From: a virus
DNA: 35,295 bases
Direction: 5' to 3' (one strand)
Virus record (IMG/VR): IMGVR_UViG_3300044631_002202
Coordinates: 1 to 35,295 of that record
This document shows positions 10,411-26,445 of this stretch, piece after piece. The notes under the pieces were generated by a model. The model was not told where the DNA came from and searched no databases. It saw only the letters and a program-made list of their open reading frames with translations. Made by a program: the position numbers and the translations under genes. The stretch's first letter is position 1, and each line of letters begins with the position of its first letter.

Positions 10411-10412
10411 CC

Positions 10413-11092: not shown

Positions 11093-11097
11093 ACAAC

Positions 11098-11125: not shown

Positions 11126-11143
11126 TCACAGAGGTTCGGCCCC

Positions 11144-11380: not shown

Positions 11381-11385
11381 AGAGT

Positions 11386-11475: not shown

Positions 11476-11508
11476 CCCTCCGCTCCTCTCCACCCTTACC
11501 TCACCGTC

Positions 11509-11742
11509 GTGCATGCAGGCGATCACTCCACCGGCCTCGATTTCTACGACTGCCGTGAGCACCAGTGGCAACTCTCCCACGCCCACGGCACTCCGATCTG
11601 CACCCTATGGCCCCGAGACACCCGCACCCGTCACCTCACGCTTACTCGCCCCCAAGCCCAACGCCTCGCCAGCTACCTCTTCCACTTCCACCAGCACGCC
11701 TCACTGCCCCGCCACCGGCACGAGCTGGAATGGCATATTTAA
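11509..11742 (+). CDS. Hypothetical protein, intact copy of a duplicated gene
   Basis: A 77-residue protein if started at the GTG after the spacer; a much earlier in-frame GTG at 11374 would translate the repeats and seems unlikely. It ends YLFHFHQHASLPRHRHELEWHI-like (His-rich), and nearly the same ending recurs at 12126-12222 (YLSHFHQHAMLP...EYHI), so the gene was once duplicated in tandem. Its TAA stop lies inside the left box of an attC-like palindrome. Function unknown. Confidence 0.45.
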   Translation: MHAGDHSTGLDFYDCREHQWQLSHAHGTPICTLWPRDTRTRHLTLTRPQAQRLASYLFHFHQHASLPRHRHELEWHI

Positions 11743-11875
11743 CGTCAATGATCACGCGCCCGATGGGGCACGTGAAGAGAATCAACCCAAAAAATTCAAG
11801 TGATATGGCCGAACAAAATCAAACATCGAAGTCCGACAGCAGCGCCCCATCTGGTCGCGTGCATCGGCGTTGCGC
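11737..11875 (+). repeat. attC-like imperfect palindrome 4
   Basis: The left box ATTTAAC (11737-11743) fits the integron consensus RYYYAAC; the right box is GTTGCGC (11869-11875). Eighteen bases after AAC comes GATGGGGC (11762-11769), pairing with GCCCCATC (11844-11851); flanking CGCG and CGCG also pair with small bulges. The ATG of the next gene (11805) is in the 74-nt loop. The sequence closely resembles palindrome 3 at 517-657. Confidence 0.6.
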
Positions 11876-12104
11876 AGTATGCGGCTGCTCAAAACTCTTT
11901 TACGGCTCGAAGCCCAAGAATGACTCCGGGCCAGCGGATCATGTCATGCACTGGAACACTTGGGAGAGTAAAGGATTAACTCCGCCGCACGAGGTGCAAA
12001 GAGGCAGTCAGCCGCGATATGTCTGCGCCGGTGGAGGCAAGCCATACGTCGAGAGTGCGCCGAACGACAAGGATCTGGCGTGGCGGGCGCTGGACTCTGA
12101 ATAA
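11805..12104 (+). CDS. Small cassette protein with Cys-rich motif
   Basis: A 99-residue protein between two attC-like palindromes. ATG 11805 is in the loop of the first. The N-terminus (MAEQNQ..., SSAPSGRVH) matches the protein at 585 because it is palindrome-encoded; the C-terminus holds NDKD like the other cassette genes. The unique centre has CAVCGC followed later by HVMHW and a YVCAGGG segment, suggesting a small zinc-binding site, unproven. It is inserted between an intact gene and the tail fragment of that gene's duplicate. Confidence 0.65.
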   Translation: MAEQNQTSKSDSSAPSGRVHRRCAVCGCSKLFYGSKPKNDSGPADHVMHWNTWESKGLTPPHEVQRGSQPRYVCAGGGKPYVESAPNDKDLAWRALDSE

Positions 12105-12132
12105 ACCAACAAAGCAGCCCTCGCCGTTGCCA
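12059..12132 (+). repeat. attC-like palindrome 5 (short, diverged)
   Basis: It opens with GCCGAAC then GACAAGGATCTGGCG, nearly identical to palindrome 3 (GACAAGGATCAGGCG at 524-538), and closes with GTTGCCA (12126-12132). The arms around 12075-12092 and 12112-12134 pair imperfectly. The loop is much shorter than in the others and holds only the upstream stop. It marks the right end of the inserted cassette. Confidence 0.45.
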
Positions 12133-12222
12133 GCATCGCAAAGCGCGCCTCCTACCTCAGTCACTTCCACCAGCACGCCATGCTCCCGCACGCCGCCAGC
12201 ATGATCGAATATCACATCTAAC
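12126..12222 (+). pseudogene. 3' fragment of a duplicated gene
   Basis: In one frame this reads AVASIAKRASYLSHFHQHAM and then a tail ending EYHI and TAA. It parallels the last 30 residues of the gene at 11509 (SYLFHFHQHASLP...LEWHI). The fragment has no start of its own and begins right at the right box of palindrome 5, as if a cassette had replaced the first part of a second gene copy. Confidence 0.6.
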
Positions 12223-12258
12223 TCATCACTCTTCACCCCTAACCCCTAACCCTTCACG
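12218..12258 (+). repeat. TAACCCC heptamer spacer
   Basis: TAACTCATCACTCTTCACCCCTAACCCCTAACCC-type units precede the gene at 12265, continuing the late-gene spacer family. Confidence 0.7.
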
Positions 12259-12264
12259 CATTCC

Positions 12265-12567
12265 ATGCGCTCCCTCTCCGCCGCCTCCTACGACCTCCTC
12301 CAACGGTCCAACTTCTTCACCCTGCTCGTCAGCAACGACCAGCGCGACCGTTTCCACGCGGCGGTCATGTGGCGCATCGTCCATTCGGCCTCGCTGGACG
12401 TCGTCACTGCCATCACGCCCGAGGATCTCGCAAAGCAGGCCAAGGTGGATTTGTGGCACGTCTCCCCTTCCGACCTCGCCCCCGTCTTCACCGTGATCAA
12501 TGAATCGCTGACCGCCGTGAACGCCGCCTTCGTCACCACTGAATCCGGCGACGTCCCTTTGACCTAG
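12265..12567 (+). CDS. Tail assembly chaperone, short form
   Basis: A 100-residue protein just before the tape-measure gene, where lambda G lies. It is helical and acidic toward the end, as expected of the chaperone that coats the tape measure during tail-tube assembly. The heptamer CCCTTTG (12555-12561) sits just before the TAG with CCT and TTG in the zero frame (X XXY YYZ), so a -1 slip would continue translation in the frame that runs on to 12803. Identification rests on position and the frameshift layout. Confidence 0.55.
   Translation: MRSLSAASYDLLQRSNFFTLLVSNDQRDRFHAAVMWRIVHSASLDVVTAITPEDLAKQAKVDLWHVSPSDLAPVFTVINESLTAVNAAFVTTESGDVPLT
12555..12561 (+). other. Candidate -1 ribosomal frameshift site
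   Basis: CCCTTTG reads C CCT TTG in the upstream frame, matching X XXY YYZ. The -1 frame is open from 12543 to 12803, overlapping the first ORF by 25 nt. After slippage the protein continues Asp-Leu-Asp-Asp-Ser. Slippage of a Leu TTG codon to TTT is less favourable than classic AAA-type sites, so efficiency is uncertain. Confidence 0.5.
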
Positions 12568-12803
12568 ACGACTCCGACGATCCGCCCTGGTTGGAGTCGC
12601 TTACATGGGCTGCTGTGCGCTGCGGGCATGACCCCGACGTCGTGTCATGGTCATGGCCTTTCCTGCGCCTCCTCCGCTTCATCCACGCCGACCTCCGCCG
12701 CAACGGCGTCAAATGCTACTTCACCAACCGCCCCCAAGTCAGCCTGGCCGATCTCAAAGCCAAGTCCGATAACCTGCTATCCGAACTCGACGACTACCTC
12801 TAA
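12562..12803 (+). CDS. Frameshift extension of tail chaperone (G-T like)
   Basis: This reading frame has no good start (only a TTG at 12591) but is in the -1 frame of the preceding chaperone gene and begins within its overlap. Its product would add about 80 residues, including DDSDDPPWLE, a Trp-rich segment and a helical end (LADLKAKSDNLLSELDDYL). This is the plan of lambda gpG-T, made in small amounts by frameshifting, which bridges tape measure and tube subunits. Alternatively it is a separate small gene starting at TTG. Confidence 0.5.
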
Positions 12804-12847
12804 AACTCATCACTCATAACCCTTAACTCATAACTCCTAACACTCCC
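12803..12847 (+). repeat. TAACTC heptamer spacer
   Basis: CATCACTCATAACCCTTAACTCATAACTCC-type units precede the TTTGAC box of the tape-measure gene. Confidence 0.7.
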
Positions 12848-12870
12848 CTTTGACTCCCCTCCCACCCTAG

Positions 12871-14031
12871 ATGTCCGTCCAAGTCCAAATCGGTGCCGAT
12901 GTCACGCAGTTCGACGCCGTCGTCGCCACACTCCCCGACAAAGTCGCGCGTTCGTCGCAGCAGATGACCCGCGCGAACGGCGGCCTCATGCGCAGCCTCG
13001 GCGGTGTCTCCATGCAGGTGCAGGACATCGCCGTGCAGCTCCAGATGGGCACGCAGGCATCGACGGTGCTGGCGCAGCAGGGCTCGCAGCTTTTGTCCGC
13101 GTTTGGGGCCGGTGGTGCGATTGCCGGTGGTGTCATCGCCATTGGCGGCGCGTTTCTGGCGATGGCGGACAATTCGCGCAAGGCTTTCAATGAAGCCGCA
13201 CGCGGTCATGATGATCTCATGAGCCGTTTCCAGCGCGGTTTTCTTGGGGGCGCGGGTGATGTGGCGGAGCAGACCGCCATCGTCACTCAGCAGGTCGATA
13301 AACTTGCATCGAAGATTCGAGACATTTGGGCAGACAGGTCTGCTGCAGATGTGATCGCCGAAACCTTTGGCGGCCCCAGCTTTGACGACAAAGTCAACCA
13401 AATGGCCTACCAGCAGGAGGATTTGGAGGCATTGCAAAAACGCGCCGACAATGAAATCATCGCCCGTGGTGCGCAGGAGTTGCAAATCATCAAGGCACAG
13501 ATTGCCGGGGAAAAAGAAAAAGCCGCGATTTTGCAGCATCAGCTCAACCTGATGCGCGAAGAGGAAAAAATCAACGCCTCCGCCGCTTCACCTGCGGCAA
13601 AAAACGTCATGATGAATTTGGCCCGCGCACGTTCGGATCTGTCTTTCAACCAGCTCAACTTGCAGGGAGCCACCCCCACCGGCCCAAATCTCCTCGGCCG
13701 CGTCACCGGCTTTTTTGGCGCGGCGATGACTCAGATGGCCCCGACCATCGACGCGATCTCGAACCGTCTCAAAGAACGCGCCCAGCAGAGCCTCTCCCGC
13801 ACGCAGGCCTTCGCCGGTGCACTCGGCAACCTGCGCGGCGACATGGACACCAGCACCGGCCGCAGCGCCTTCAATCCGCTCCGTGCCGACGGCAGCAAGC
13901 AGCTCTCCGAAATGGCCCGCCAAACCGCCGCCCTCCGCCGCGTCGCCCAAACCGGCGACAAACAAACCAGCCTCCTCCAGTCCATCGACAACACCATCCG
14001 CCGCCTTAACCTGATTCCAAAATACTCATAA
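12871..14031 (+). CDS. Tail tape-measure protein, short
   Basis: A 386-residue protein with the signature QVQDIAVQLQMG...STVLAQQGSQLLSAFG near residues 50-75, typical of lambda-like tail length tape-measure proteins. A hydrophobic Gly/Ala segment follows (80-98), then long helices with a coiled-coil region (180-235) and a helical C-terminus. Tape measures set tail length; the usual rule of about 1.5 angstrom per residue would give a tail of roughly 58 nm, shorter than lambda's. A TTTGAC box lies 16 nt before the ATG. Confidence 0.85.
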   Translation: MSVQVQIGADVTQFDAVVATLPDKVARSSQQMTRANGGLMRSLGGVSMQVQDIAVQLQMGTQASTVLAQQGSQLLSAFGAGGAIAGGVIAIGGAFLAMADNSRKAFNEAARGHDDLMSRFQRGFLGGAGDVAEQTAIVTQQVDKLASKIRDIWADRSAADVIAETFGGPSFDDKVNQMAYQQEDLEALQKRADNEIIARGAQELQIIKAQIAGEKEKAAILQHQLNLMREEEKINASAASPAAKNVMMNLARARSDLSFNQLNLQGATPTGPNLLGRVTGFFGAAMTQMAPTIDAISNRLKERAQQSLSRTQAFAGALGNLRGDMDTSTGRSAFNPLRADGSKQLSEMARQTAALRRVAQTGDKQTSLLQSIDNTIRRLNLIPKYS

Positions 14032-14082
14032 CCCATCACCCCTAACCCATAACCCTTAACTCTTAACCTCTAACTCCCACCC
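14029..14082 (+). repeat. TAACCCN heptamer spacer
   Basis: About seven units (TAACCCAT, TAACCCT, TAACTCT, TAACCTC) fill the gap between tape measure and the next tail gene. Confidence 0.8.
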
Positions 14083-14841
14083 ATGCCCGCCACCCACCGC
14101 GGCACCGTCGCCACCCTCCAAGCTGAAGCCACGACCTCGATCTCCCGCGAGACCATCTCGCACATCGAGACTGTGACCATGAGGCGCGAGGACGCCCAGG
14201 ATCGCGGCAATCTGCGCCTGCTCGGCGAGTTCAAGACCGTCAACGACATCACCACAACGCTGTCCAACATCGAGATCCGCTACCTCCCCGGCGAGCTCGC
14301 CGAGGTGCAATACACGTATTCGGGCGGCACCGACAACACCCAAGTCAACCCCGGCGACCTCACCGGCGCCGTCGGCATCGGCGGCAGCTCGGAGACCTGG
14401 GAGCTGGATGTGAAGCTGCGCACCGTGTCACTGATCCGGCATCCTCGCTACGCCACCGTTTCAGATTCGGACAAGCGAGTGCTCGCCGCCATGATCCAGT
14501 TCGGCCTCATCGACAGCGAAGGCAATGAGATCCGCCGATTCCTTTCCAATAGCGGACTGGCGAATCAATGCGCCAACCTGATCGAGCTGGAAGGCATCAC
14601 CAGCTACGAGGCAGCCTTTTATTCGCTGCGCCGCACGCAGTTCAATTCGTCCGACGTCCCGCTGCCTCGCATCGGCAAAATCAGCGACCCTGGCGCGCCT
14701 GCGCCGCCGATCGCTGCCGGTGAAAACTGGCTCGTCATCGGCTACCGCGGGAAATATGCCGGCAACAAATGGACCGAGCTCGTCACCGAGTGGGAAAGCT
14801 CCGGCGGCGGTCTCGGCTGGGACAACGGCCTCTACTCCTAG
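14083..14841 (+). CDS. Putative distal tail protein
   Basis: A 252-residue protein directly after the tape measure, where distal-tail and baseplate-hub genes lie. It is beta-rich in the first half (LGEFKTVND, IEIRYLPGELAEVQYTY) and has no enzyme motif. The end is Gly-rich (ESSGGGLGWDNGLYS). I do not recognise the family; a tail-tip role is inferred from position. Confidence 0.45.
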   Translation: MPATHRGTVATLQAEATTSISRETISHIETVTMRREDAQDRGNLRLLGEFKTVNDITTTLSNIEIRYLPGELAEVQYTYSGGTDNTQVNPGDLTGAVGIGGSSETWELDVKLRTVSLIRHPRYATVSDSDKRVLAAMIQFGLIDSEGNEIRRFLSNSGLANQCANLIELEGITSYEAAFYSLRRTQFNSSDVPLPRIGKISDPGAPAPPIAAGENWLVIGYRGKYAGNKWTELVTEWESSGGGLGWDNGLYS

Positions 14842-14893
14842 TATCCGTTAACCCCTAACTCATAACCCCTAACTCCTAACCCTTAACCCCCTC
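14840..14893 (+). repeat. TAACCCN heptamer spacer
   Basis: Six or more TAACCCC/TAACTCA/TAACTCC units lie before the ATG at 14895. Confidence 0.8.
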
Positions 14894-14894
14894 C

Positions 14895-15473
14895 ATGTCC
14901 CTCTCCTCCCCTCTCCCCCGACCGCGCTCCGGCGAGACCATCGCCGCGGCGCACATCACCGCGCTGTCGGAGGCGATCCGGGACCGCACGCCCATCTCCT
15001 CGCCATCCATCCGCGTCGTGCCGCGCACAGGCGGATTCGCACTGGAGACGATCACGAAGGGCGGCGGCATGGGCGGCACCTTTCGCGGGAACTGGTCCCC
15101 GAGCGCGGGTGATGACAACACCGTCGTCGTCAGCGGCGGCACCATTTACGACAGCCTCGGCGCGAAAATCGTGCCGGAGGCCACATTGAACGCGCCAAAC
15201 GACACGCTCTACTACATCTATCTCCAGGTGAACTTTACCGCGAACACCGTGGACGGCTACGTCGTCGGCGGCAGCATCAGCAGCGGGGTGATCAACATCA
15301 ACACCACCGGCTGCCCCGTGAACACGAACACCGCCGCCTACATCCTCCTCGCCACCTGGAATGGCGACGGCGGCGGCCTCGAAGAACGTTACGCATGGTT
15401 TCCGTTTAGCTTTCAGTTCAACCAAAAAGACGCCACCCCGGGCGATGTCGCTGCTAATTTCTGGATCTCGTAA
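14895..15473 (+). CDS. Putative tail protein
   Basis: A 192-residue protein starting with a Pro/Arg-rich, polar segment (SGETIAAAHITALSEAIRDR), which resembles the oligomerising N-terminus of some tail-fibre adaptor proteins, followed by a Gly/Asn/Thr-rich beta region. No membrane segment or enzyme motif is seen. It forms a run with the next two genes, separated by 3 and 15 nt, that leads to the fibre gene. Function inferred from position only. Confidence 0.45.
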   Translation: MSLSSPLPRPRSGETIAAAHITALSEAIRDRTPISSPSIRVVPRTGGFALETITKGGGMGGTFRGNWSPSAGDDNTVVVSGGTIYDSLGAKIVPEATLNAPNDTLYYIYLQVNFTANTVDGYVVGGSISSGVININTTGCPVNTNTAAYILLATWNGDGGGLEERYAWFPFSFQFNQKDATPGDVAANFWIS

Positions 15474-15476
15474 GCC

Positions 15477-15887
15477 ATGACCGTCCCTCCTCCGGTCAAC
15501 TATCGCGACGTCACGGTGATCCCGCCGCCGGAGCAGACGAACGGAGCCTTGCAACAAATCGCGCCGTATTATCGCGCAGGCGTGTTGGAGGATGCCGCGG
15601 GAGACGTCGGTGATGGCGTGACGATCGGCCTTGTGCCGGAAAAGGGCGAGCCTACGGCCGATCTCCCCGGCGGCACCGCCATCACCGGCCCGAACACCTT
15701 CGACATCTATCTCAAAGTCGTGCCCGTGCCGGTGCGCATCATCGCCACGTTTGACGACGGACTCGGCGGCACCCCTTACGATGAAGACTACCAGATGGGC
15801 CCCAGCACCATGCATCTGGCCATCGACGTCGCGGTCGATGAAGTGCTCCGCGGCATCGCCGCCGAGCGGCTCTTCTGGCCTTATTGA
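15477..15887 (+). CDS. Hypothetical tail-region protein
   Basis: A 136-residue protein starting 3 nt after the previous stop. It carries PPPEQTNGALQQIAPYYRAG and a middle strand region VPVRIIATFDDG, ending with a helical DVAVDEVLRGIAAERLFW. Not recognised. Tight spacing suggests co-translation with its neighbours and a shared tail-tip or baseplate role. Confidence 0.45.
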   Translation: MTVPPPVNYRDVTVIPPPEQTNGALQQIAPYYRAGVLEDAAGDVGDGVTIGLVPEKGEPTADLPGGTAITGPNTFDIYLKVVPVPVRIIATFDDGLGGTPYDEDYQMGPSTMHLAIDVAVDEVLRGIAAERLFWPY

Positions 15888-15902
15888 CACGCGCTCCCCC
15901 GC

Positions 15903-16439
15903 GTGGAATACGACGTTTATGTCAACACGACCATGAAGGTCGCTCTCGCCTCCGCCACCGGCGTCGCCGTGCCGGTCATCACGCCGCGCCTCCAGACGCA
16001 TCTGCGCCTGCGCGTTTACTTCTTCGCCCCCGGCGATGATCCCGCGCTCCTGAGCGGCTCGCCGACTTTCCGCGTCGCGCTAAAGGACAAATACGAGCCC
16101 AGCGGCTCCGTCCTCGCCCTCCTCTCCACCGCCACCGCCACCGGCGCGGACTACTATGAGTTTGAATGGGCCAGCGTGGACTCCACCGCCCTGCGCACGC
16201 TGCTCGATGACAACGACAGCGTCGAGGCCGCTCTGGAGCTCGAGTGGACGATCAGCGCCACCGTCGAACGCGTCACCATCCCCGTCACTATTGAAAACGC
16301 CTGGCTGCGCACCGCCGACGCCGCGCCCGACTTTCAACCCTTCGCCGCCTCCATCACCGCCAGCGGCTACCTCCGCCTCGTGAACACCTCCGGCACCGTT
16401 TTCCACATCGGCCTCAACACCGGAGAACCTCCCGCATAA
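15903..16439 (+). CDS. Hypothetical tail-region protein
   Basis: A 178-residue protein starting at GTG, 14 nt after TTATTGAC, a member of the TTTGAC box family. It is beta-rich throughout (YDVYVNTTMKVAL, TVERVTIPVTIENAW) and ends with strands and a VFHIGLNTGEPP tail, in the style of baseplate-upper or receptor-attachment domains. The next gene is the fibre. Not recognised as a family. Confidence 0.45.
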   Translation: MEYDVYVNTTMKVALASATGVAVPVITPRLQTHLRLRVYFFAPGDDPALLSGSPTFRVALKDKYEPSGSVLALLSTATATGADYYEFEWASVDSTALRTLLDDNDSVEAALELEWTISATVERVTIPVTIENAWLRTADAAPDFQPFAASITASGYLRLVNTSGTVFHIGLNTGEPPA

Positions 16440-16440
16440 G

Positions 16441-16480
16441 TCTCTCCCAGTCTCATTGTCTGATTGTCCCATTGTCTCCC
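16441..16480 (+). repeat. GTCTCATTGTC octamer spacer
   Basis: Four TGTCTGAT/TGTCCCAT/GTCTCATT-type units lie directly before the fibre ATG at 16482. Confidence 0.7.
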
Positions 16481-16481
16481 A

Positions 16482-18377
16482 ATGATCCGACATCTCCTTC
16501 CCCTCCTCCTTCTTTCCACCTTCGCCGCCGCCCAAACCGTCGGCCAATACGAAATCCGCAAACGCGGCGCGTCCGGCTTCACCAGCTACGGCGTCACGCT
16601 GAGCAACGGTCAAGTTATCGGCCAGACCGCCGGAATCCCCGCCGCCATCACGCCCTTCGGCGGGGCGTTCTCTGATCTGAGCGGCAAGCCAACCACCCTC
16701 AGCGGCTACGGCATCACGGACGGCCTCACCACCACCAGCAACCTCTCCGACCTCACCAATGCAGGCACCGCGCGGACCAACCTCGGACTCGGCGCCGCCG
16801 CCACGCTGGCGACCAGCACCGGCGGCAATTACACAACCGATGGCGGCAAGGTGATGATCTTTGGCAGCTTTGGCGAGGCCGACATCTCGCGTGCTCTCAC
16901 CATCCACCGCATCAACAGCGGCGGCTGGCTGCCCGGCGTGTTGCAGCTCGAATCCGAGGACAACGTGCAAGCCGTCATTTCGCCGAGCGATGGCATGGGC
17001 TCCTTTCAAACCTTCACGCTGCCCACCGTCGGCGGCACCCTGATCGGCACCGGCAACCTCACCGCCATCACCGCCACCGGCACCATCACCAGCGGCACCT
17101 GGCAGGGCTCGATCATCGCCCCCGCCTACCTCGGCACCGGCACCAGCATCAGCACAAAATACCTTCGCGGCGACGGCACCTGGCAGACCGTCAGCGGCGG
17201 TCTCGCCGATGGCGATTACGGCGACATCACCGTCAGCGGCAGCGGTGCCACATGGACGATTGATAACGGCGCAGTCAGCAACGCCAAACTGGCCAACAGC
17301 AGCATCACCATCAACGGCTCTGCCATCAGCCTCGGCGGCAGCGTCACAACGGCGACTTTGGGGTCGAACACGTTTACCAATCTTCAAACCATCACGCAGG
17401 CCAATGCGAACACGGGCATCCTCGCATCCACCGGCTACTCGCTCACGGGCAGCAACGAAACAAGCATGATTGACCTCGCGGGCACACTCAACACGACAGG
17501 TTCGCCAGCGGTCATTAAACTCAACGTCACGAACACTGCGAGCGGAGCGAGCTCGCGGCTTTTATTGCTGCAAGTCGGCGGCGTCGATAGGTTCCACGTT
17601 ACTCCTGCTGGAGTCGTCACAATTCGGCATTCAAGCTCGGTCAATGATTTTTTGACGTTAGGAGGAACTGCTTCGGCTGTAATCCAGTATAGCTCATACG
17701 TGCTTGGGCAGCATTACGCCTTGATTGGTGATTCAAACGGCAGCGGTGGCCCGACGCATTTTAAACTGGGTGCGCAAGGCATCATCACCTTTCAAAGCAC
17801 AAACCGATCTGACACTGGAACTCAGGATCTCATTGTCGGCCGTGATGCCGCTGCAACTTTGCAAGTCGGACAAGACGCGAACGCCGACGCCACCGACCAG
17901 ACCTTCAAGTCCGCCGACGGCATCACCGGCACCGACCGCAGCGGTGCTGACCTCACCCTCGCCAGCGGTCGCGGCACCGGCGCTGGCGCGGCCTCTGCGC
18001 TCATTTTCTCGACGCCTTCCGCTCTCTCCACCGGCACGACCGCGCAGTCTCTAACCGAACGTGCACGCATCACCTCGGCAGGGCTGACCATCGGCAGCAG
18101 CGGCGGCAGCGCCATTTCTCGCGTCATCACCGCCACCGCTACGCTCGACTTTGGCAGCATCGCCGCGCAATCCAGTGCCGATCTCACCATCACCGTCACC
18201 GGCGCGGCTGCTGGCGAAGCCGTCATGATGGGCCTGCCTGCCACCGCTTCCGCCGGCGTCGTCTTCAACGCCATCGTCACCAGCGCCAACACCGTCACCA
18301 TCCGCGCCACCAACACCACCGCCGCCCCCATCGACCCCGCCTCCGCCACCTACCGCGCCACCGTGATCCAACACTAA
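16482..18377 (+). CDS. Tail fibre protein with N-terminal signal-like sequence
   Basis: A 631-residue fibre-like protein. Residues 1-18 (MIRHLLPLLLLSTFAAAQ) look like a Sec signal peptide with an AAA/AAQ cleavage site. Next come short fibre repeats: SGKPTTLSGYGITDG, NLSDLTNAGTARTNLGLG, typical of phage long-fibre shafts. The C-terminal region has the GADLTLASGRGTGAGA-type triple-helix motif and Thr/Ser-rich ends. ATG 16482 follows the spacer repeats. A stretch near 17,630-17,880 is less GC-rich than its flanks, hinting at a swapped receptor-binding module. It probably determines host range. Confidence 0.75.
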   Translation: MIRHLLPLLLLSTFAAAQTVGQYEIRKRGASGFTSYGVTLSNGQVIGQTAGIPAAITPFGGAFSDLSGKPTTLSGYGITDGLTTTSNLSDLTNAGTARTNLGLGAAATLATSTGGNYTTDGGKVMIFGSFGEADISRALTIHRINSGGWLPGVLQLESEDNVQAVISPSDGMGSFQTFTLPTVGGTLIGTGNLTAITATGTITSGTWQGSIIAPAYLGTGTSISTKYLRGDGTWQTVSGGLADGDYGDITVSGSGATWTIDNGAVSNAKLANSSITINGSAISLGGSVTTATLGSNTFTNLQTITQANANTGILASTGYSLTGSNETSMIDLAGTLNTTGSPAVIKLNVTNTASGASSRLLLLQVGGVDRFHVTPAGVVTIRHSSSVNDFLTLGGTASAVIQYSSYVLGQHYALIGDSNGSGGPTHFKLGAQGIITFQSTNRSDTGTQDLIVGRDAAATLQVGQDANADATDQTFKSADGITGTDRSGADLTLASGRGTGAGAASALIFSTPSALSTGTTAQSLTERARITSAGLTIGSSGGSAISRVITATATLDFGSIAAQSSADLTITVTGAAAGEAVMMGLPATASAGVVFNAIVTSANTVTIRATNTTAAPIDPASATYRATVIQH

Positions 18378-18412
18378 CTGTTCACCCATAACTCATCACT
18401 CATAACCCTTCA
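18373..18412 (+). repeat. TAACTC heptamer spacer
   Basis: TAACTGTTCACCCATAACTCATCACTCATAACCC-type units separate the fibre and the gene at 18414. Confidence 0.7.
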
Positions 18413-18413
18413 C

Positions 18414-18848
18414 ATGAAATTCCTCCTCGCCCTCCTCGCCCTCTTCACCCTCGCCATCACCGCACTCCACGCCGCCGACGTAGTCACCATCACCAGCGCG
18501 ACCAGCGTCCTCGTGAACGGCGTGGACTACGGCAAACCCGCCGACGCCATCGCCAACAACAAACAGCTCGCGCCCGCCATCCAGCTCGCCCTGGAAAAAT
18601 GGGCCGCCGACATCACCGCCGACAAAGCCACCGCCGAGGCCGAGCGCAACGCGCTCAAGGCCCGCATCTCCACCGTCCTCAACACCATGCTCACCGAAGA
18701 ACTCAAAACCGGCGACGGCCCCAAAGCCGAACTCCTCCGCAAACTCATCGCCGAATCCCAAAAATCCGACGCCGACCTCAAACGCGAAGCCCTCGCCGCC
18801 GAGATCTCCGCCAAACAAGCCGAACTCCAAAAGCTCACCGGCCCTTAA
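18414..18848 (+). CDS. Exported or membrane-anchored helical protein, possible inner spanin
   Basis: A 144-residue protein beginning with a 21-residue hydrophobic signal/anchor (MKFLLALLALFTLAITALHA), then a mostly helical, charged, Ala/Glu/Lys-rich body (about 60-140) with heptad-like spacing. An N-terminal anchor plus periplasmic coiled coil is the plan of inner-membrane spanin subunits (Rz), which act with an outer lipoprotein at lysis. The lipoprotein candidate is four genes downstream. It could instead be a plain secreted protein. Confidence 0.4.
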   Translation: MKFLLALLALFTLAITALHAADVVTITSATSVLVNGVDYGKPADAIANNKQLAPAIQLALEKWAADITADKATAEAERNALKARISTVLNTMLTEELKTGDGPKAELLRKLIAESQKSDADLKREALAAEISAKQAELQKLTGP

Positions 18849-18888
18849 CTCATCACTCCTAACACTTAACCCATAACCCATCACCTCC
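18846..18888 (+). repeat. TAACCCN heptamer spacer
   Basis: TAACTCATCACTCCTAACACTTAACCCATAACCC-type units precede the gene at 18893. Confidence 0.7.
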
Positions 18889-18892
18889 CCCC

Positions 18893-19264
18893 ATGCTCCA
18901 CGACCACGACATGCCTCTCCAGCTCGCGCTCTGCATTGCCGGGGCTTTCGTGAGCGCCGTCGGCACCTGCGCCACCGCCATCATCGGGGCCATCCATGAC
19001 CTCGCCGTCATCGAGCCCGACGAGCTCGCCATTCAGCCGCTGCACGTCGTGCTCATCGGCTTCATCATCGCCCTCGCCACGTTCATCGTCCTCATCCTCC
19101 GCGCCGTCTGGTGCCGCGGCATCGACACCGTGAACCGCTTCAGCGACGCCCAGGAGCGCCTCACCGCGAAGATGGAGGAACTCTGCCAGCTCCAAACCCG
19201 ACGAGTGGAAAAGCTTGAAGAAATCAGCCTCTCCGCACTGCGAGACGCCACGCAGGGGAAATGA
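18893..19264 (+). CDS. Two-helix membrane protein, possible holin
   Basis: A 123-residue protein with two hydrophobic helices at about residues 8-30 (LALCIAGAFVSAVGTCATAII) and 48-68 (VVLIGFIIALATFIVLIL), then a coiled-coil cytoplasmic or periplasmic region (about 78-115). Two membrane helices, small size and place in the lysis group fit a class II holin, which forms lesions that let the endolysin reach the wall. A membrane anchor for another function cannot be excluded. Confidence 0.5.
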   Translation: MLHDHDMPLQLALCIAGAFVSAVGTCATAIIGAIHDLAVIEPDELAIQPLHVVLIGFIIALATFIVLILRAVWCRGIDTVNRFSDAQERLTAKMEELCQLQTRRVEKLEEISLSALRDATQGK

Positions 19265-19298
19265 CCCAGCAAGCGGCGATTGACTCGCCTCGCAAGGC

Positions 19299-19733
19299 AT
19301 GAGCCGCGAAGCCTGCTTCCTCTCCGAATTCCGCGTCGCCGACATCAGCGACGGCCGCGAGATCAACAAGCTCGAACTCCTGGAGCCGTTCCAGGTTTAC
19401 AGCGCCCATCTCGACAGCATCATCACCGTGCCGAGTGGCTTCAAATTCGACGGCGAGTCCATCCCGCTCGCCCTCCAATGGCTCGTCCCGCCGTTTGGTC
19501 AAAGCAAACGCGGCGCATGCGTCCACGACTACCTCTACCGCAACCACGGCTTTCACACCCTCACCGGCGTCCGCATCCCCGTCTCCCGAGCCGATGCCGA
19601 CGCCGTGTATCACGAGCTGATCCTCGCTAAAGGCCTCCCCAAATGGCGCGCCACGGTGCGCTATTACACACTCCGCGCCGTCGGCTTCATCGCCTGGAAC
19701 AACTCCCCCGCCAAAAAACAAGGCTTCGCATGA
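19299..19733 (+). CDS. DUF1353 family protein
   Basis: A 144-residue protein with the DUF1353 pattern: GFKFDGESIPLALQWLVPP, then GACVHDYLYRNHG, then RADADAVYHELIL and PKWRATVRYYTLRAVG. The His-Asp pair (VHDYLY) and the FDGESIP region are the conserved core. The family is common in phages next to lysis genes; its function is not established. ATG is 14 nt after ATTGAC. The stop overlaps the next ATG (ATGA). Confidence 0.75.
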   Translation: MSREACFLSEFRVADISDGREINKLELLEPFQVYSAHLDSIITVPSGFKFDGESIPLALQWLVPPFGQSKRGACVHDYLYRNHGFHTLTGVRIPVSRADADAVYHELILAKGLPKWRATVRYYTLRAVGFIAWNNSPAKKQGFA

Positions 19734-19999
19734 AACGCATTCATTCCTCATTCCTCATTGATACGCTGCGCTCACCCCTGCGGGGCAGCCGTTGGCTGTC
19801 TGTCTCGCTTTGCTCGGCTCTGGTTTCGTCATTCCTGGCCTCCTGCTCCAACCACATCGCCGGTCTCTCCCGCAACGACCGCCTCACCCTCTACGCCACC
19901 GCCGCCACCCTCACCGGACACCCCGAGCTCGCCGCCGCCGCCCAAGCCCTCCGCCGCCCCACCACCAGCGCCAAACAACCCCAACGCATCCTCCCTTAA
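19730..19999 (+). CDS. Small lipoprotein, Rz1-like outer spanin candidate
   Basis: An 89-residue protein with ATGA overlap to DUF1353. An N-terminal basic then hydrophobic stretch ends in the lipobox LASC (cysteine about residue 39), so it is probably lipidated. The mature part is short and ends in a Pro-rich tail (RRPTTSAKQPQRILP), as Rz1 outer-membrane spanins do. Spanins fuse inner and outer membranes at the last step of lysis. Its lipobox is further from the start than in typical Rz1. Confidence 0.55.
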   Translation: MKRIHSSFLIDTLRSPLRGSRWLSVSLCSALVSSFLASCSNHIAGLSRNDRLTLYATAATLTGHPELAAAAQALRRPTTSAKQPQRILP

Positions 20000-20048
20000 C
20001 CCCTAACTCCTACCCCTTAACTCATAACCACTAACCCCTAACCTTCCC
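19997..20048 (+). repeat. TAACCCN heptamer spacer
   Basis: About seven units (TAACCCC, TAACTCC, TAACTCAT, TAACCAC) separate the lipoprotein and endolysin genes. Confidence 0.8.
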
Positions 20049-20057
20049 CCGCCCCCC

Positions 20058-20621
20058 ATGAACCCCAAAGACATCCGCGCCCTCCAAGAGCGCATCGGCG
20101 CCGAGCCCGACGGTTTCTGGGGCCCCGCCAGCATCGCCGCCTGCCAGCGCCACCTGCGCAGCCTCATGCCAGCGAAAAACCCGTGGCCCAAATCCGATCA
20201 AGCCAGCCTCACCAAGTTCTACGGTGCCGCCGGTGACGAATCGAAACTCGTCCCCATCGCCGTTGCCGACCTCGGCCTCAAATACGACGGCAAGCCTGTG
20301 AGGATCATCCGCTGCCACGGCAAAGTCGGCGCCAGCCTCCGCCGCGTGCTCGAAGAAATCGCCAGCGGCCCCTCCCGGTCCGTCCTCGCTCAATACGCTG
20401 GCTGCTACAACAATCGTCCCATGCGCGGCGGCAGCCTGCCCAGCCTCCACGCCCGCGGTGCCGCCGTCGATCTCGACCCCGACACCAACGGCAACCACAT
20501 CGCCTGGCCCGTCGCCGCCACCATGCCGATCGAAGTCATGGAAGCCTTCAGCCGCGAAGGCTGGCTCTCCGCCGGTGCCTTCTGGGGCCGCGATGCCATG
20601 CATTTCCAAGCCACTCAGTAA
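20058..20621 (+). CDS. Endolysin, M15-type peptidase with N-terminal peptidoglycan-binding segment
   Basis: A 187-residue endolysin. Residues about 5-33 (IRALQERIGAEPDGFWGPAS) match a peptidoglycan-binding domain_1 repeat. The catalytic part has the M15 metallopeptidase pattern: LPSLHARGAAVDLD supplies His131 and Asp138, and GRDAMHF supplies Asp179 and His182, the zinc ligands and catalytic acid of VanY/D-Ala-D-Ala-type peptidases. It would cut peptide cross-links in the host wall. Position after holin and spanin candidates agrees. Confidence 0.8.
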   Translation: MNPKDIRALQERIGAEPDGFWGPASIAACQRHLRSLMPAKNPWPKSDQASLTKFYGAAGDESKLVPIAVADLGLKYDGKPVRIIRCHGKVGASLRRVLEEIASGPSRSVLAQYAGCYNNRPMRGGSLPSLHARGAAVDLDPDTNGNHIAWPVAATMPIEVMEAFSREGWLSAGAFWGRDAMHFQATQ

Positions 20622-20844
20622 TCGAACACGCCGTCACTCAAAAGCCACCTCTGCGCCGAGTCCGTTGAAAAACAAGCCACCAACTAGTCTTCGATTCTCG
20701 TAGGGGTCGCCACTCTCACTAGAGAGTGGAGAGGGGAGAAGAGGGCGGGAGAGGACTCTAAAGGACGCGAAAAGACGGTTTAGGCGTCACGCGACGTAAC
20801 TTTTAGAGCTTGACCTTTGCAAACTGTGTGGGTCTCATAGACTC
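20622..20844. other. Non-coding region between endolysin and integrase genes
   Basis: This 223-bp gap has no convincing gene. It holds the attP candidate, the inverted repeat at 20710-20729, a purine-rich stretch (20729-20765), a GGCGTCACG motif at 20783 that matches motifs near 32.4 kb, and a TTGACC element at 20810 that could be a -35 box for the integrase operon, though no clear -10 is visible. Confidence 0.5.
20690..20712 (+). other. Candidate attP core resembling a tRNA 3' end
   Basis: TTCGATTCTCGTAGGGGTCGCCA looks like the T-loop, 3' T-stem, acceptor strand, discriminator and CCA of a tRNA, as many phage attachment cores do. It lacks a matching 5' T-stem, as expected if only the shared core is present. 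It lies about 155 bp before the integrase operon and touches an 8-bp inverted repeat (CCACTCTC / GAGAGTGG, 20710-20729). Confidence 0.45.
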
Positions 20845-21432
20845 ATGAAAAATCAGCATGGGGTCACAATGCGCAAACGACGCAATAGGAGCGGTTCCAT
20901 TTCCTGGCAGATTGATTATGGTGTCGTCGATGGGAAAAGGATCCGGCAAAGTTTCGCGACGTTGGAGGAAGCTCGCAAAGCAAACCTTGGATTGTTTAAA
21001 AGTCGCAATGCTGGATTGGTCGAGATTGATCGAGAAAAACAGCGACTGCGTGCGCTGGTGGCTGAGCAAAGCAAAAAACTAGGCGAGCTTGAGCGTGAAA
21101 TTGTGCGGATGCGTGCTTATCGAGCAGGTGCTGTTTGCCCCAGTGAGTTGCGTGACCATCCGCATGTTTTTGAACTGCCACACGCAACGTCAGGAGTGTA
21201 TTTTTTGTGCGATGAAGTCAGCAGGATTCTTTACGTGGGAATGTCGCAGGATATTCCAGCTAGGGTGGCTCGGCACCGGCAGCGCGGTGTGATTCCGTTC
21301 TCCGTCGTTTTTGTCATTCCGTATGCCCCACATGAATGCTTTGAGATGGAGTCTTGGTGGATCAAAAAACTGCAACCTCCTCATAATGGAGAAGCGCCAA
21401 TTCAATTTCAAACGGGGCATTGCAGGCCATGA
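20845..21432 (+). CDS. GIY-YIG nuclease-like protein with integrase-type N-terminal domain
   Basis: A 195-residue protein. Residues 9-50 (RSGSISWQIDYGVVDGKR then QSFATLEEARKA) match the arm-binding N-terminal domain of the next gene's integrase (GSGRVSFQLDYGQVDGRR then TFSTRQEADQA). A coiled coil follows (60-92). Residues 115-185 form a GIY-YIG nuclease: SGVYFL (GIY, 117-119), ILYVGMS (YIG, 130-132), Arg140, His144, Glu169 and Asn181 all in place. The stop overlaps the integrase ATG. It is less GC-rich than the late genes. Such a domain pair could direct a nuclease to integrase arm sites; that is inference. Confidence 0.75.
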   Translation: MKNQHGVTMRKRRNRSGSISWQIDYGVVDGKRIRQSFATLEEARKANLGLFKSRNAGLVEIDREKQRLRALVAEQSKKLGELEREIVRMRAYRAGAVCPSELRDHPHVFELPHATSGVYFLCDEVSRILYVGMSQDIPARVARHRQRGVIPFSVVFVIPYAPHECFEMESWWIKKLQPPHNGEAPIQFQTGHCRP

Positions 21433-22556
21433 TCATTCGCGAGCGAAGCTATGGCAGCGGCAGGGTGAGTTTTCAGCTTGACTATGGGCAGGTGGACGGG
21501 CGCCGAAAGGTGGTGACGTTTTCAACGAGGCAAGAGGCCGATCAGGCGTTGAGGGCGGCAGGTGAAAGTAAAAAACAGCTTGGCATGCTGGGATTGACGG
21601 CGTCGCCGTTGGAGATGGCGGAGTTTTTGGCGGTGAGGGAACGGCTGCGGAGTTGTGGGGCTTCGATCCTGGAGGCGGTGGAATTTTTCATGGAGCATGG
21701 CTTGAAGGTGCGGCATCCGAAGTTGATGACTGCGCTGGTGGAGGATTTTATCTGGTCGCGCATCGAGCTCGGAAGGGATGTCCGCACGATTCAGACCTAT
21801 CGGCATGTGCTGCGGGCTTTGGCGCGGGCGTTTCCGCTGCGGCATGCGCACGAAATGACGCGCGAGGATCTAAAGGCGTGGCGGCGGTCGCAGGGGTGGA
21901 GCCCGGCGACGCAGAACAAGGCGATGGGTCATGTGCGCGGTTTGTTCAAATGGGCGATCGCGGAGAAGCATGCGGGCCTTGATCCGTGTGAAGGATTGGA
22001 GGAGGTGACGGTGTCGCCAGCGGAGGTGGAGGTGTTGTCGCTGCGGTCGTGTGAGGCGCTTTTGATGACGGGGCTCAAGGTCCCAAGGTTCATGCCGTTT
22101 CTGGTGCTGGGGCTGTTTCGTGGCATGCGGCGTTCTGAGCTGGAGCGGTTGCGATGGGAGGAGATCAATCTGGAGAGTGGATCGGTGATCGCGAGCGCGG
22201 CAAAGGTGAAGACGCGGCGGCGGCGTGTGATGGAACTGACGCCGCAGATGCGGGCATGGATCTCGGCGGCCGGGTGGACGGAGGAGATGATGCAGACGGG
22301 GCCGGTGGCTCCGAGCAATCTGAAGGTGCTCTGGCCGAAGTTTTGGCGGCAGGCGGGCTTGCCACGCTGGCCGCACAACGGGCTGCGTCACACGTTTGCC
22401 TCGATGCACTACGCGATGCACCAGGACGAGGCCGCACTGCAGGCGATCTTGGGGCAACGGTCGGCGGATGTGCTGCATACGAATTATCGGGCGCTGAAGA
22501 CGCGGGGTGAGGCGGAGAGGTTTTTTGCGCTGATGCCGACGGTGGGAGTGAGTTAG
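21429..22556 (+). CDS. int: Phage integrase, tyrosine recombinase
   Basis: A 375-residue tyrosine recombinase for attP x attB recombination. Domains: arm-binding N-terminus (1-50), core-binding SAM-like helices (95-185), catalytic domain (200-370). Catalytic residues seen: Arg234 in GMRRSEL, a lysine near 259-261, LRHTFAS with Arg320, and Tyr353 in HTNYRAL. The usual box II His is Asn317 (HNGLRH) and box III has Gln343 (LGQ) where His is usual; related phage integrases tolerate such changes. ATG 21429 overlaps the GIY-YIG stop, so both are probably co-translated. Confidence 0.9.
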   Translation: MIIRERSYGSGRVSFQLDYGQVDGRRKVVTFSTRQEADQALRAAGESKKQLGMLGLTASPLEMAEFLAVRERLRSCGASILEAVEFFMEHGLKVRHPKLMTALVEDFIWSRIELGRDVRTIQTYRHVLRALARAFPLRHAHEMTREDLKAWRRSQGWSPATQNKAMGHVRGLFKWAIAEKHAGLDPCEGLEEVTVSPAEVEVLSLRSCEALLMTGLKVPRFMPFLVLGLFRGMRRSELERLRWEEINLESGSVIASAAKVKTRRRRVMELTPQMRAWISAAGWTEEMMQTGPVAPSNLKVLWPKFWRQAGLPRWPHNGLRHTFASMHYAMHQDEAALQAILGQRSADVLHTNYRALKTRGEAERFFALMPTVGVS

Positions 22557-22834: not shown

Positions 22835-22865
22835 AAAAAAGGCCGCTCAATGAGCGGCCTTTTTT
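22835..22865. terminator. Bidirectional rho-independent terminator
   Basis: AAAAAA, then the 9-bp stem GGCCGCTCA / TGAGCGGCC with a 1-nt centre, then TTTTTT. The A-tract before and T-tract after let it work for both the rightward integrase/membrane gene transcript and the leftward regulator transcript. Confidence 0.9.
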
Positions 22866-23738: not shown

Positions 23739-23796
23739 TACCACCCGGCGGGGAAGCGACGGGACTTTTTCAGACAGGGAGACAACCAGACAACCA
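23739..23796 (+). repeat. 58-bp direct repeat, left copy
   Basis: Starts TACCACCCGGCGGGGAAGCG and runs into GACAACCA octamers. It matches 24679-24736 with two mismatches. CCCG...CGGG followed by TTTTT within it resembles a weak terminator. The two copies bracket the ParB-like gene at 23836. Confidence 0.8.
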
Positions 23797-23828
23797 GACA
23801 ACCAGACAACCAGACAACCAGACAAGGA
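23781..23828 (+). repeat. GACAACCA octamer array
   Basis: Five GACAACCA units and a GACAAGGA unit in tandem, in the forward polarity of the early half of the genome. The final AAGGAG is 8 nt before ATG 23836 and probably acts as its ribosome binding site. Confidence 0.85.
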
Positions 23829-23835
23829 GACACTT

Positions 23836-24672
23836 ATGAAAACAAGAGTTGAAAAAATTGGGCCGGAGCAGGCGAAGTTTTATCTGAAAAAAAACACCCA
23901 TAATCGCCCACTGTCGCGATTTCAGGTGACTAAGTATGCCACGATTATGGAGCAGGGGCGGTGGCAGCTTAACGGCGAGCCTATTATCATCGCGGATGAT
24001 GGCACTCTCTTGGATGGACAGCACCGGCTTTCAGCCATTGTTTTGGCGGGAGTGAATGTGGAGTGTCTTGTTGTCGAGGGCCTTTCGCGCGAAGTGTTTG
24101 CAACATTGGGAACCGGCGCAAAGCGCAATGCAGGAGATGTCGCCGCGATGTTGGGATGTAAGAATGCGACCTGGGTGGGAGCGGCTTTGGGTTGCCTTCA
24201 TCGTTTGGAAAGCGGACTGATCGACTGCCAGGTTTCTATTCCCAATGACAAAGTTGAGGAGCTTATTCAGCGGTATCCTGAAGTGACGCAGGTGGTTTCG
24301 GATGCTGGTGCATCGGCAATTAAGAAGATACTTTCCATCGGTGTTTTCGCAGGTTTTTACATTTGGCTTTCGCGACGTTTTCCAGCGCAGGCATCTGATT
24401 TTTTTGAACAGCTCAAATCTGGAGTTGGCCTGATCGCTGGTAGTCCTGTATTGCTGCTGCGCGAGCGGCTAGTCGCTGACAGGAATAGCAAGGCCAGACT
24501 CCCACAACGTGAGATCGTGGCGCTTTTGATCAAGGCATGGAATGCCCACCTGACCGGGAAGTGGCCGAAGATTTTAAAGTATGCAGCGCTCCAAGAAACC
24601 TTCCCGGTAATTCGCGACGGAGTGGGCGTGGCTCGAAACGAGTCGGTTCCGATCCGCAAGCTGGCGGCTTGA
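23836..24672 (+). CDS. ParB/Srx-fold protein
   Basis: A 278-residue protein with LLDGQHRLSAI (residues 58-68), the core motif of ParB/sulfiredoxin-fold domains found in many phage proteins, preceded by NRPLSRFQVTKYATIMEQG. The C-terminal two-thirds are helical and unrecognised. Its exact role is unknown; relatives bind or modify DNA or nucleotides. It is less GC-rich than its neighbours and flanked by 58-bp direct repeats, so it looks like a removable insert. ATG 23836 follows AAGGAG; an upstream extension through the repeats is unlikely. Confidence 0.65.
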   Translation: MKTRVEKIGPEQAKFYLKKNTHNRPLSRFQVTKYATIMEQGRWQLNGEPIIIADDGTLLDGQHRLSAIVLAGVNVECLVVEGLSREVFATLGTGAKRNAGDVAAMLGCKNATWVGAALGCLHRLESGLIDCQVSIPNDKVEELIQRYPEVTQVVSDAGASAIKKILSIGVFAGFYIWLSRRFPAQASDFFEQLKSGVGLIAGSPVLLLRERLVADRNSKARLPQREIVALLIKAWNAHLTGKWPKILKYAALQETFPVIRDGVGVARNESVPIRKLAA

Positions 24673-24678
24673 TGACAA

Positions 24679-24736
24679 TACCACCCGGCGGGGAAGCGAC
24701 GGGACTTTTTCAGGTAGGGAGACAACCAGACAACCA
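24679..24736 (+). repeat. 58-bp direct repeat, right copy
   Basis: Matches 23739-23796 with two mismatches (GACAG versus GGTAG region) and again ends in GACAACCA octamers. It forms the leader of the next gene, whose ATG (24751) follows an AGGAG. Confidence 0.8.
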
Positions 24737-25205: not shown

Positions 25206-26095
25206 GTGTGCAGCGTGGTGATGGGTTAGGGGTTAAGGGTGATGGGCTGACGGTGCTGCCGGTGGGTGCGCTGAGCGGGCGGCATCATGAGCTGCCGAGG
25301 GCGAATGCGGAGCGCATGACAGGTGCCCAGGCGGCGGAAATGATGACGATGAACGATTCGGAGTGGATTCTGGCGGCGGCGATGCTGGACTCGCTGACGG
25401 ATGATCTGGCGATCACGCACGCGGCGAAGTGGTGGACGCTGAATCCGGATGAGATGCAGGGGAAGTGCGGGGAGGCGGATCTGCTGCTGAAGGAGCTGCA
25501 CAGCGATGGCATCGCGATGCTGATGGACATGGTGGCGGCGGCGACGGCGGGTCGTGTGCAGATGCGGCTGGGCTGGCTGCTGCGGGTCGCGAAGGCGAAG
25601 GCGAGGCATCGCAGTCTGATCTCGGCGCTGAGCTTTGAGAGTGTGAGGCATCGCATCCGGCTCGTGGAGACGGGGCTGCAAGCGCGGATCAAGGTGGACT
25701 CGGACGCGGTGTCGGGATCGCCGAGGTATCAGCGGGAGCGGTTTCGCGCACGCAAGCAGGCGGGGCTGTGCCGTGAGTGCTCCAGCCAGGTGGAGCCGGG
25801 GCATTCCCGCTGTCCGGAGTGCCGCAGGATTCACCGGCTGAGCGAGGAGAAGCGCAAGGAGCAACGGCGGAAGCTGCCGGCGGGTGCGATCTCGCTGCGC
25901 GAGTGGATGCTGCGCATGGCGGACAAGCTGCACCTGACCATCAAGGGCGTGCAAAGCCGCATGACGCGGGGCGCGATCGTGACGCCGCCGGTGGTGTATC
26001 GGAATCACACGCGGGTGTATGTGATGCCGCTGGAGGGTGGGGCAGGACAGGGAGACAATCAGACCATCAGACAAGGAGAAAGGAGGGCGGCGTGA
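25202..26095 (+). CDS. Zinc-ribbon protein, probable DNA-binding
   Basis: A 297-residue protein if started at the ATGA overlap. CRECSSQVEPGHSRCPEC around residue 190-207 is a four-cysteine zinc ribbon. After it come basic helices (EEKRKEQRRKL) and a segment ISLREWMLRMADKLHLTIKG that resembles an HTH, followed by TPPVVYRNHTRVYVMP. The first 20 residues include a GGGTTA-type repeat and the last 15 an octamer array, so both ends may be recent additions. Early operon position suggests DNA binding; role unknown. Confidence 0.5.
   Translation: MSVQRGDGLGVKGDGLTVLPVGALSGRHHELPRANAERMTGAQAAEMMTMNDSEWILAAAMLDSLTDDLAITHAAKWWTLNPDEMQGKCGEADLLLKELHSDGIAMLMDMVAAATAGRVQMRLGWLLRVAKAKARHRSLISALSFESVRHRIRLVETGLQARIKVDSDAVSGSPRYQRERFRARKQAGLCRECSSQVEPGHSRCPECRRIHRLSEEKRKEQRRKLPAGAISLREWMLRMADKLHLTIKGVQSRMTRGAIVTPPVVYRNHTRVYVMPLEGGAGQGDNQTIRQGERRAA
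26053..26080 (+). repeat. GACAATCA octamer array
   Basis: GACAATCA, GACCATCA and GACAAGGA units end the 25202 gene and lead into the AAAGGAGG Shine-Dalgarno of the 26095 gene. Confidence 0.75.
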
Positions 26096-26445
26096 TGAGT
26101 GCGGAAGTTTTGCGTGACACGCTGGAGGCATCCCAGGTGATGGAGATGCTGGGGCGGGTGCTTGATGAGCTGCGGGAGATCAAGTCGCGAGTTGGCGGGG
26201 CGGATGCAAATGTCCGCGGTCGTGATGAGACGGTGCCGCTGACGGCGAAGGAGCTGTGCGAGCGGTGGGGCATCGAGTCGGCGGACGCGGATCTGCGGCT
26301 GTTTTATCTGGCGCGCAAGTGTCGTGCCTGGGGACTGCGGCCGCTCAAGGGCACGCGGGGCTGGAAGGCGGTGTATTCGCGGGCGGATGTGCTGCACGCC
26401 GAAAGCTACGCTGCGGGAAAAATCAACCGGAGGAGGAATGCGTGA
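26095..26445 (+). CDS. Excisionase/MerR-like winged HTH protein
   Basis: A 116-residue protein. After an N-terminal coiled coil (MEMLGRVLDELREIKSRV), PLTAKELCERWGI then FYLARKCRAWGLRPLKG and GWKAVYSRADVLHAE form the helix-turn-helix plus wing of excisionase/MerR-like (HTH_17) DNA-binding domains. It could be the recombination directionality factor for the integrase or an early regulator. A strong AGGAGG is upstream; its stop overlaps the next ATG. Confidence 0.6.
   Translation: MSAEVLRDTLEASQVMEMLGRVLDELREIKSRVGGADANVRGRDETVPLTAKELCERWGIESADADLRLFYLARKCRAWGLRPLKGTRGWKAVYSRADVLHAESYAAGKINRRRNA

Follow-up and report, generated by a model that had tools for sequence, protein, structure and literature searches.

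Why would a phage protein that looks like a GIY-YIG nuclease begin with the same small domain as the tyrosine integrase encoded next to it, and to which DNA would such a domain direct it? We addressed this question in the window, i.e., the whole stretch of 35,295 nucleotides that was analyzed. A perfect direct repeat of 127 bp at its two ends (1-127 and 35169-35295) shows that the window, an IMG/VR record, is a complete circular phage genome of about 35,168 bp, and since it also holds a single intact copy of the attP core described below, the record does not represent an integrated form. An M15-peptidase endolysin gene (20058-20621) lies upstream of the nuclease/integrase pair. Both open reading frames of the pair were found where the initial annotation had placed them, and the ATGA overlap that it had reported is located at 21429-21432. 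The genes and their parts are as follows:

20845-21432, + strand: GIY-YIG nuclease gene with an integrase-type head (195 aa; possible internal start at 20869)
20866-20961, + strand: nuclease head, putative arm-binding type (residues 8-39; integrase-head profile, predicted three-stranded sheet then helix)
20962-21114, + strand: helical linker of the nuclease (residues 40-90; single predicted helix)
21187-21387, + strand: GIY-YIG catalytic domain (residues 115-181; Y119, Y130, R140, E169, N181)
21429-22556, + strand: tyrosine integrase gene (375 aa; PF00589, PHROG 1, lambda Int fold)
21429-21584, + strand: integrase head, putative arm-binding type (residues 1-52; predicted strands 2-7, 13-22 and 25-31, then helix 34-57)

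The ATG at 20869 (...GGGGTCACAATGCGC) lines up with the starts of integrases, and translation of the nuclease may in fact begin there rather than at 20845.

We then compared the two N-termini, whose alignment had been claimed from reading the translations, and found the likeness to hold for about 40 residues. In a single pairwise BLASTP comparison, 18 of 40 residues were identical (45%) and 29 of 40 positive (E = 5e-8). A profile built from the integrase heads of 11 other phages, with those of the window and of phage L003 left out, recognized the window nuclease at 59 bits (E = 4.5e-18), the window integrase (E = 8e-21) and the L003 nuclease (E = 5e-17), with the next best match among the ~390 ORFs of the window at only E = 0.23. 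When the profile was run against 16 other GIY-YIG relatives, none was among its top matches and nothing fell below 0.2. In AlphaFold2 models, which come from shallow alignments (pTM 0.47 and 0.51) and are reliable locally only, both heads were beta-beta-beta-alpha with their elements in register: strands 8-13, 19-28 and 31-37 followed by helix 40-90 in the nuclease, and the same order in the integrase at the positions listed above. Model confidence (pLDDT) was about 80-97 in the heads, and 90-97 over most of the nuclease head. Together, these comparisons confirm that the nuclease head is homologous to the integrase heads.

The partner is assigned as a tyrosine integrase by Pfam PF00589 (E = 2e-7) and PHROG 1 (E = 2e-32); the best fold matches of its model include full-length lambda Int, and it keeps R234, K261, R320 and Y353 as read from alignments. 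Like the lambda-type integrases (lambda Int, Tn916/Tn1549 Int), it carries an N-terminal, probably arm-binding head made of a three-stranded sheet plus a helix; unlike in those systems, the same head is also found on a nuclease. By eye, the family lacks the usual first catalytic His, with N317 in the motif WPHNGLRH (window 21429-22556, L010 and L003), and where most relatives have the second His, the window, L003 and L010 have a Gln (LGQ).

The C-terminal part of the nuclease gave a borderline score with Pfam PF01541, amounting to 22.1 bits alone (cut-off 22.6) and 24.1 bits with its neighbours in frame. Its top fold match, however, was the GIY-YIG domain of UvrC (rmsd 2.1-2.3 over about 77 columns), and the secondary structure follows the canonical order of strand 117-122, strand 128-134, helix 137-147, strand 154-159 and helix 162-176. 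G117, Y119, Y130, G132, R140, E169 and N181 are invariant in five diverged members, and the catalytic residues are nearly invariant across the wider family. Thus, the description of a complete-looking nuclease has held and its homologues keep the catalytic residues, and by fold and by its conserved Y, Y, R, E and N the protein falls in the GIY-YIG superfamily, from which it would be expected to cleave DNA. The coiled coil proposed between head and nuclease domain appears as one long predicted helix of 51 residues. Purifying selection acts on the linker and catalytic part (dN/dS 0.14), and the ORF is intact in all three phages that carry the gene.

Many phages encode relatives of the GIY-YIG core, with highly diverse N-termini. 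Sinorhizobium phage NV1.1.1 (L005 4496-6381) has a related GIY-YIG gene that adjoins a tyrosine integrase gene, again with an ATGA overlap, and the protein (P0003) has an HTH_17-like head, as judged by a 41% match to L019. A second related protein, in L021 (4674-6474), also adjoins a tyrosine integrase and has an AlpA-like head by eye; in L020, the GIY-YIG gene lies some 600 bp upstream of the integrase gene. The proteins of NV1.1.1 and L021 are both uncharacterised, and they resemble the window nuclease in domain and gene position but differ in their heads. Of ~17 other lineages, about 3 had GIY-YIG genes near integrases; the sample is small, and we claim no general rule from it. Since the integrase-adjacent GIY-YIG proteins carry different heads, the aiming of such nucleases at the control of integration may have had more than one origin.

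In the DNA upstream of the pair, the following features were read:

20632-20648, + strand: left arm sites, CGTCAC (20632-20637) and a degenerate AGCCAC (20643-20648), assigned from their homology with the left pair in L010 (CGTCACTCAAACGCCAC)
20690-20712, + strand: putative attP core TTCGATTCTCGTAGGGGTCGCCA, a tRNA-like 3' end found as an exact 23-mer in 7 IMG/VR contigs
20707-20732, + strand: hairpin across the 3' end of the core (inverted repeat with 11-nt arms, 91% complementary; kept in L003)
20753-20776, + strand: three phased direct repeats GGAC/GGAC/AGAC in 10-bp steps, between the core and the right arms
20785-20800, + strand: right arm sites, CGTCAC (20785-20790) and CGTAAC (20795-20800), the second being CGTTAC in L003 and L004
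20790-20868, + strand: variable non-coding block with the second right arm site and the nuclease leader, 53% identical to L004
20808-21580, + strand: cassette identical in L003 and L004, comprising leader, nuclease and integrase head (773 bp, zero differences)

The 23-mer resembles the final 23 nt of a tRNA gene, with a T-loop of 7 nt, a stem strand of 5 nt and an acceptor strand of 7 nt before the discriminator and CCA, and in 7 of 7 IMG/VR contigs it is closely followed by either a homologous integrase or the nuclease and integrase pair. Because of this position, its conservation and its tRNA-like form, we infer that the core at 20690-20712 is attP. Other tRNA-like 3' ends serve as the core in other members, the L063 core giving a match to the 3' end of a tmRNA model (E = 0.0002). 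Phased repeats similar to those of the window are also present in L010, L011 and L016. When 20600-21000 was scanned for sigma-70 promoters, none was found.

Thirteen nuclease-free relatives in IMG/VR (11 with records between 28 and 40 kb, plus one of 25.4 kb and one of 6.9 kb) have two direct-repeat pairs, one on each side of the core, with the repeats of a pair mostly 10-12 bp apart. In all 13, the repeats run directly into int with nothing between attP and int, and searching these relatives with the nuclease protein returned integrase heads only. An automatic four-site search gave p<=0.05 in 11 of the 13 and was near that in the other two, whereas the pattern in nuclease-bearing phages was degenerate, at p = 0.38 for the window and 0.08 for L003. 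The motif closest to the arms of both is that of L010, of which the arms in nuclease-bearing phages seem to be degenerate versions. From phage to phage, the arm motif varies among CGTCAC, CGTAAC, CGTGAC, CGGCAC, CGGCAG, TGACAC, CGTCCC and CGTTAA.

This variation follows the integrase head. Using hand-aligned 9-mers from 11 phages, we found that distances between arm motifs correlated with distances between heads (r = 0.54, Mantel p = 0.0002), and the correlation persisted when the integrase core was controlled for (partial r = 0.46, p = 0.0003). Conversely, the core explained almost nothing once the head was given (r = 0.09). Adding a distant twelfth phage, L070, kept the trend (r = 0.56), the full set being L010, L011, L016, L044, L045, L057, L058, L060, L061, L063, L064 and L070; these 12 heads with their arm motifs make the arm-recognition code of these small domains directly testable. 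Since arm motif and head covary, the head is most likely the reader of arm sites and hence the determinant of arm-site specificity. The proposal that the shared head is the arm-site-binding domain of the integrase is thus well supported by the lambda-Int-like fold, by the putative attP and arm-like repeats upstream and by the covariation, and the nuclease head, from its likeness to those of L010 and L070, is predicted to bind arm DNA of the CGTCAC type. The residue after RxRx appears to track the fourth arm base, with N for C (L010 and L070), H for A (L011 and L016) and Y for G (L058, L061 and L064), but the window has a Y-type integrase without clear CGTGAC arms, and this one-residue code would be only a lead.

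The best match of the nuclease head among integrase heads was that of L010 (60% identity with E = 1.3e-14, and 68-69% over the aligned head), compared with 40-47% identity (E = 6e-7 at 40%) for its own partner. Since L010 has the same 23-mer core as the window together with CGTCAC arms, the nuclease appears keyed either to a phage competing for that site or to the arms that its own lineage had ancestrally. The initial annotation had named the phage's own arm sites as the target; the arm-type head agrees with this, but its being nearer to L010 (60%) than to the partner (40%) does not.

We also asked how the gene pair is distributed and how it varies. A search for the same pair in other phages found it in L003 and L004, i.e., in three contigs including the window, with two nuclease alleles. 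Single-protein scans of genome contigs with the nuclease and the integrase gave no match; in tblastn against plasmids, the integrase had no match and the nuclease one match, to a Methylovorus plasmid, covering the GIY-YIG part only. Between the window and L004, identity was 99.6% over the end of the endolysin gene, left arm and core, but fell to 53% over the right arm and leader. Within the nuclease it was 62% in the head, 91% in the helix and 95% in the core, and within the integrase 56% in the head and 92% in the core (nucleotide identity). Synonymous sites were nearly saturated in the heads, with dS of 1.4-2.2, but dS was only 0.18 in the nuclease linker and core, which suggests that the heads were replaced by recombination and not mutated in place. 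In L003 and L004, the 773 identical base pairs stand between flanks that are 9.6% different (log10 P = -33.7), a pattern indicating recent transfer of leader, nuclease and integrase head as one block. The best reading is that these three move as a cassette, with the co-variation of the two heads seen in one contrast (two alleles) and the identical block in one pair. Among the relatives, we found no nuclease-free locus with near-identical flanks. As to how the arrangement arose, a single insertion of nuclease core plus second head into int, which would make the nuclease head that of the ancestral integrase, would account for the likeness to L010, but the integrase heads of the window and L003 are too different for one insertion.

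The common head, the arm sites, the head/arm covariation, a selected and intact nuclease, the block transfer and nuclease-free relatives with the same core, all computed here, are best accommodated if the protein is a GIY-YIG endonuclease whose integrase arm-site-binding head lets it find phage attachment sites, in the service of homing or interference; we give this reading a probability of roughly one in two. In the mechanism that we infer, the head would dock on a CGTCAC-type arm site, and the long helix would bring the GIY-YIG domain to neighbouring attP/int DNA of any related phage that shares the cell. The catalytic domain would then cut attP or int of the related phage at a distance from the bound arm. 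A phage cut in this way and repaired from, or recombined with, the nuclease-bearing phage would receive the right arm and leader, the nuclease and a new integrase head, whereas a rival for the same tRNA-like site would, if unrepaired, be disabled; the benefit to the carrier could accordingly be homing, interference or both. The carrier itself would be spared by the alteration of its own arms and leader with the cassette. In the window, however, the left arm still fits the L010 pattern, so that the carrier would not obviously escape self-cleavage. The identical block in diverged flanks is the pattern expected from homing with co-conversion, although ordinary recombination could also have moved it. 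Homing or interference with rivals had been among the functions suggested at the outset, and both gain support from the cassette and from the nuclease-free relatives.

A more specific version, which we hold only tentatively and with the odds somewhat against it, is that of an attachment-site-directed nuclease: its head would be that of a rival integrase, it would cut attP/int of rivals for the same site, and it would move within a specificity cassette of arms, nuclease and matching integrase head, which would re-key the integrase of the recipient and confer immunity. If this were true, phages would contest host attachment sites with nucleases aimed by the integrase arm-recognition code, and integrase specificity could be swapped as a mobile cassette. 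There would also be a selective reason for the diversification of arm sites and integrase heads, and a principle known from the Odn nuclease (below), i.e., a rival's DNA-binding head joined to a nuclease, would extend from replication origins to integration.

Alternatively, the protein might be a regulator or competitor that binds its own arms and the int leader and so represses int or blocks or assists assembly of the intasome, with GIY-YIG activity being secondary. The distance from the right arms to the nuclease start downstream is 44 bp, so that binding there would affect the int operon, while the gene overlap suggests co-expression with the integrase, and in the model the long helix could conceivably serve for dimerisation. 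We nevertheless consider a regulator unlikely, given the invariant catalytic residues, the purifying selection on the nuclease core, a head nearer to another phage's integrase than to the partner's, and 13 relatives that do without the gene.

Somewhat less likely again is a purely selfish, free-standing homing endonuclease, which would cut int/attP of nuclease-free relatives, use its head only to find the insertion site and bring the phage no benefit. Such a gene would account for the sharp edges of the 773-bp block and would have targets in the nuclease-free relatives, and GIY-YIG homing enzymes are common in phages (PMC10448857). However, a plain homing gene would have no need of the new integrase head that the block includes, and no nuclease-free locus with near-identical flanks was found among the relatives to mark its insertion point.

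That the protein is a recent and functionless chimera of an integrase head and a stray GIY-YIG gene seems very improbable: only two nuclease alleles are known, and the N-termini of the wider GIY-YIG family are indeed very diverse, but the reading frame is intact in three phages with dN/dS of 0.14 and a full catalytic set, and the identical cassette has been kept intact in two diverged backgrounds. Least likely, compared with regulation or selfish homing, is an excision factor that sets the direction of recombination by nicking or by occupying the arms. The initial suggestion that the nuclease favours excision gained no support. The gene does adjoin int and attP, and GIY-YIG proteins also adjoin int in NV1.1.1 (with its HTH_17-like head) and L021, but 13 relatives that share the attP layout lack it, and a separate small candidate regulator (26083-26445; no Pfam match) is present in the window and also in L010.

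Returning to the attachment-site-finding nuclease, we compared it with known systems. The claim that no system of this design had been described needs qualification, since there is a conceptual precedent in Odn (Gp88), the origin-directed nuclease of Vibrio phage ICP1, a GIY-YIG/T5orf172 nuclease with a RepA head (PMC8263062) and with known RepA_N-T5orf172 relatives (PMC10448857). In both proteins, a nuclease of the GIY-YIG superfamily is joined to a domain that comes from the DNA-binding protein of a mobile element, and in Odn's targets, as in the integrase heads here, that domain is swapped together with its cognate DNA sites while the remainder of the gene stays. They differ in that Odn has a replication-initiator head and an origin as target, whereas here the head is that of an integrase arm-binding domain and the expected target an attachment site; moreover, the present gene, known from its sequence alone, overlaps the integrase gene of its own carrier, a temperate phage. 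The window nuclease has no RepA_N head and T5orf172 was not among its Pfam matches, which makes it an analogue of Odn rather than a member. Its head, too, may have been borrowed from a rival, the closest head being that of the integrase of L010, a phage with the same attP core, but it is explained equally well as the ancestral head of the nuclease's own lineage. The same Pfam search returned neither DUF723 nor DUF4397, which along with CapR are the DNA-binding domains of T5orf172/CapR homing endonucleases.

I-TevI cuts at a distance from its own binding site. It and the free-standing GIY-YIG homing endonucleases of the Seg type share with the window protein a small catalytic domain, a linker and a separate DNA-binding domain, and the block transfer seen here is consistent with homing and co-conversion as in those enzymes; here, however, the catalytic domain is C-terminal and the integrase-type head N-terminal, with no intron or intein. 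AP2 domains and integrase arm domains are alike. HNH homing endonucleases with an AP2 DNA-binding domain (PMC10448857) also join a nuclease to a small beta-sheet DNA-binding domain, but the nuclease is HNH and not GIY-YIG, and they are not known to descend from a neighbouring integrase. In the open-licence full-text literature, we found no GIY-YIG or other nuclease tied to an integrase arm domain, attP or excisionase in such a design. New here are the attP/arm layout, the head/arm covariation, the 773-bp cassette and a nuclease head nearer to the integrase head of another phage with the same core than to its partner's.

Several further observations were made in the window. The product of 26083-26445 is small and, by eye, HTH-like in its C-terminal part, and its counterpart in L010 has 74% nucleotide identity; it is a candidate excisionase or regulator. 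A strong, bidirectional terminator-like hairpin (AAAAAAGGCCGCTCAATGAGCGGCCTTTTTT) at 22835-22865 separates the integrase side from a leftward RHH gene, and an Rfam search gave chance matches only, around this terminator. Within 23739-24736, a gene that is ParB-like by eye is flanked by two 58-bp direct repeats, 97% identical and 940 bp apart, and is absent from the corresponding point of L004, suggesting gain or loss via recombination between the repeats. Lastly, repeats of 14 bp (CTTAACCC-like) and of 8 bp (GACAATCA / TGTCTGAT-like) form many intergenic clusters within 2926-20065 and 1310-26082, with some repeats reading into ORFs as DNQTTRQP runs.
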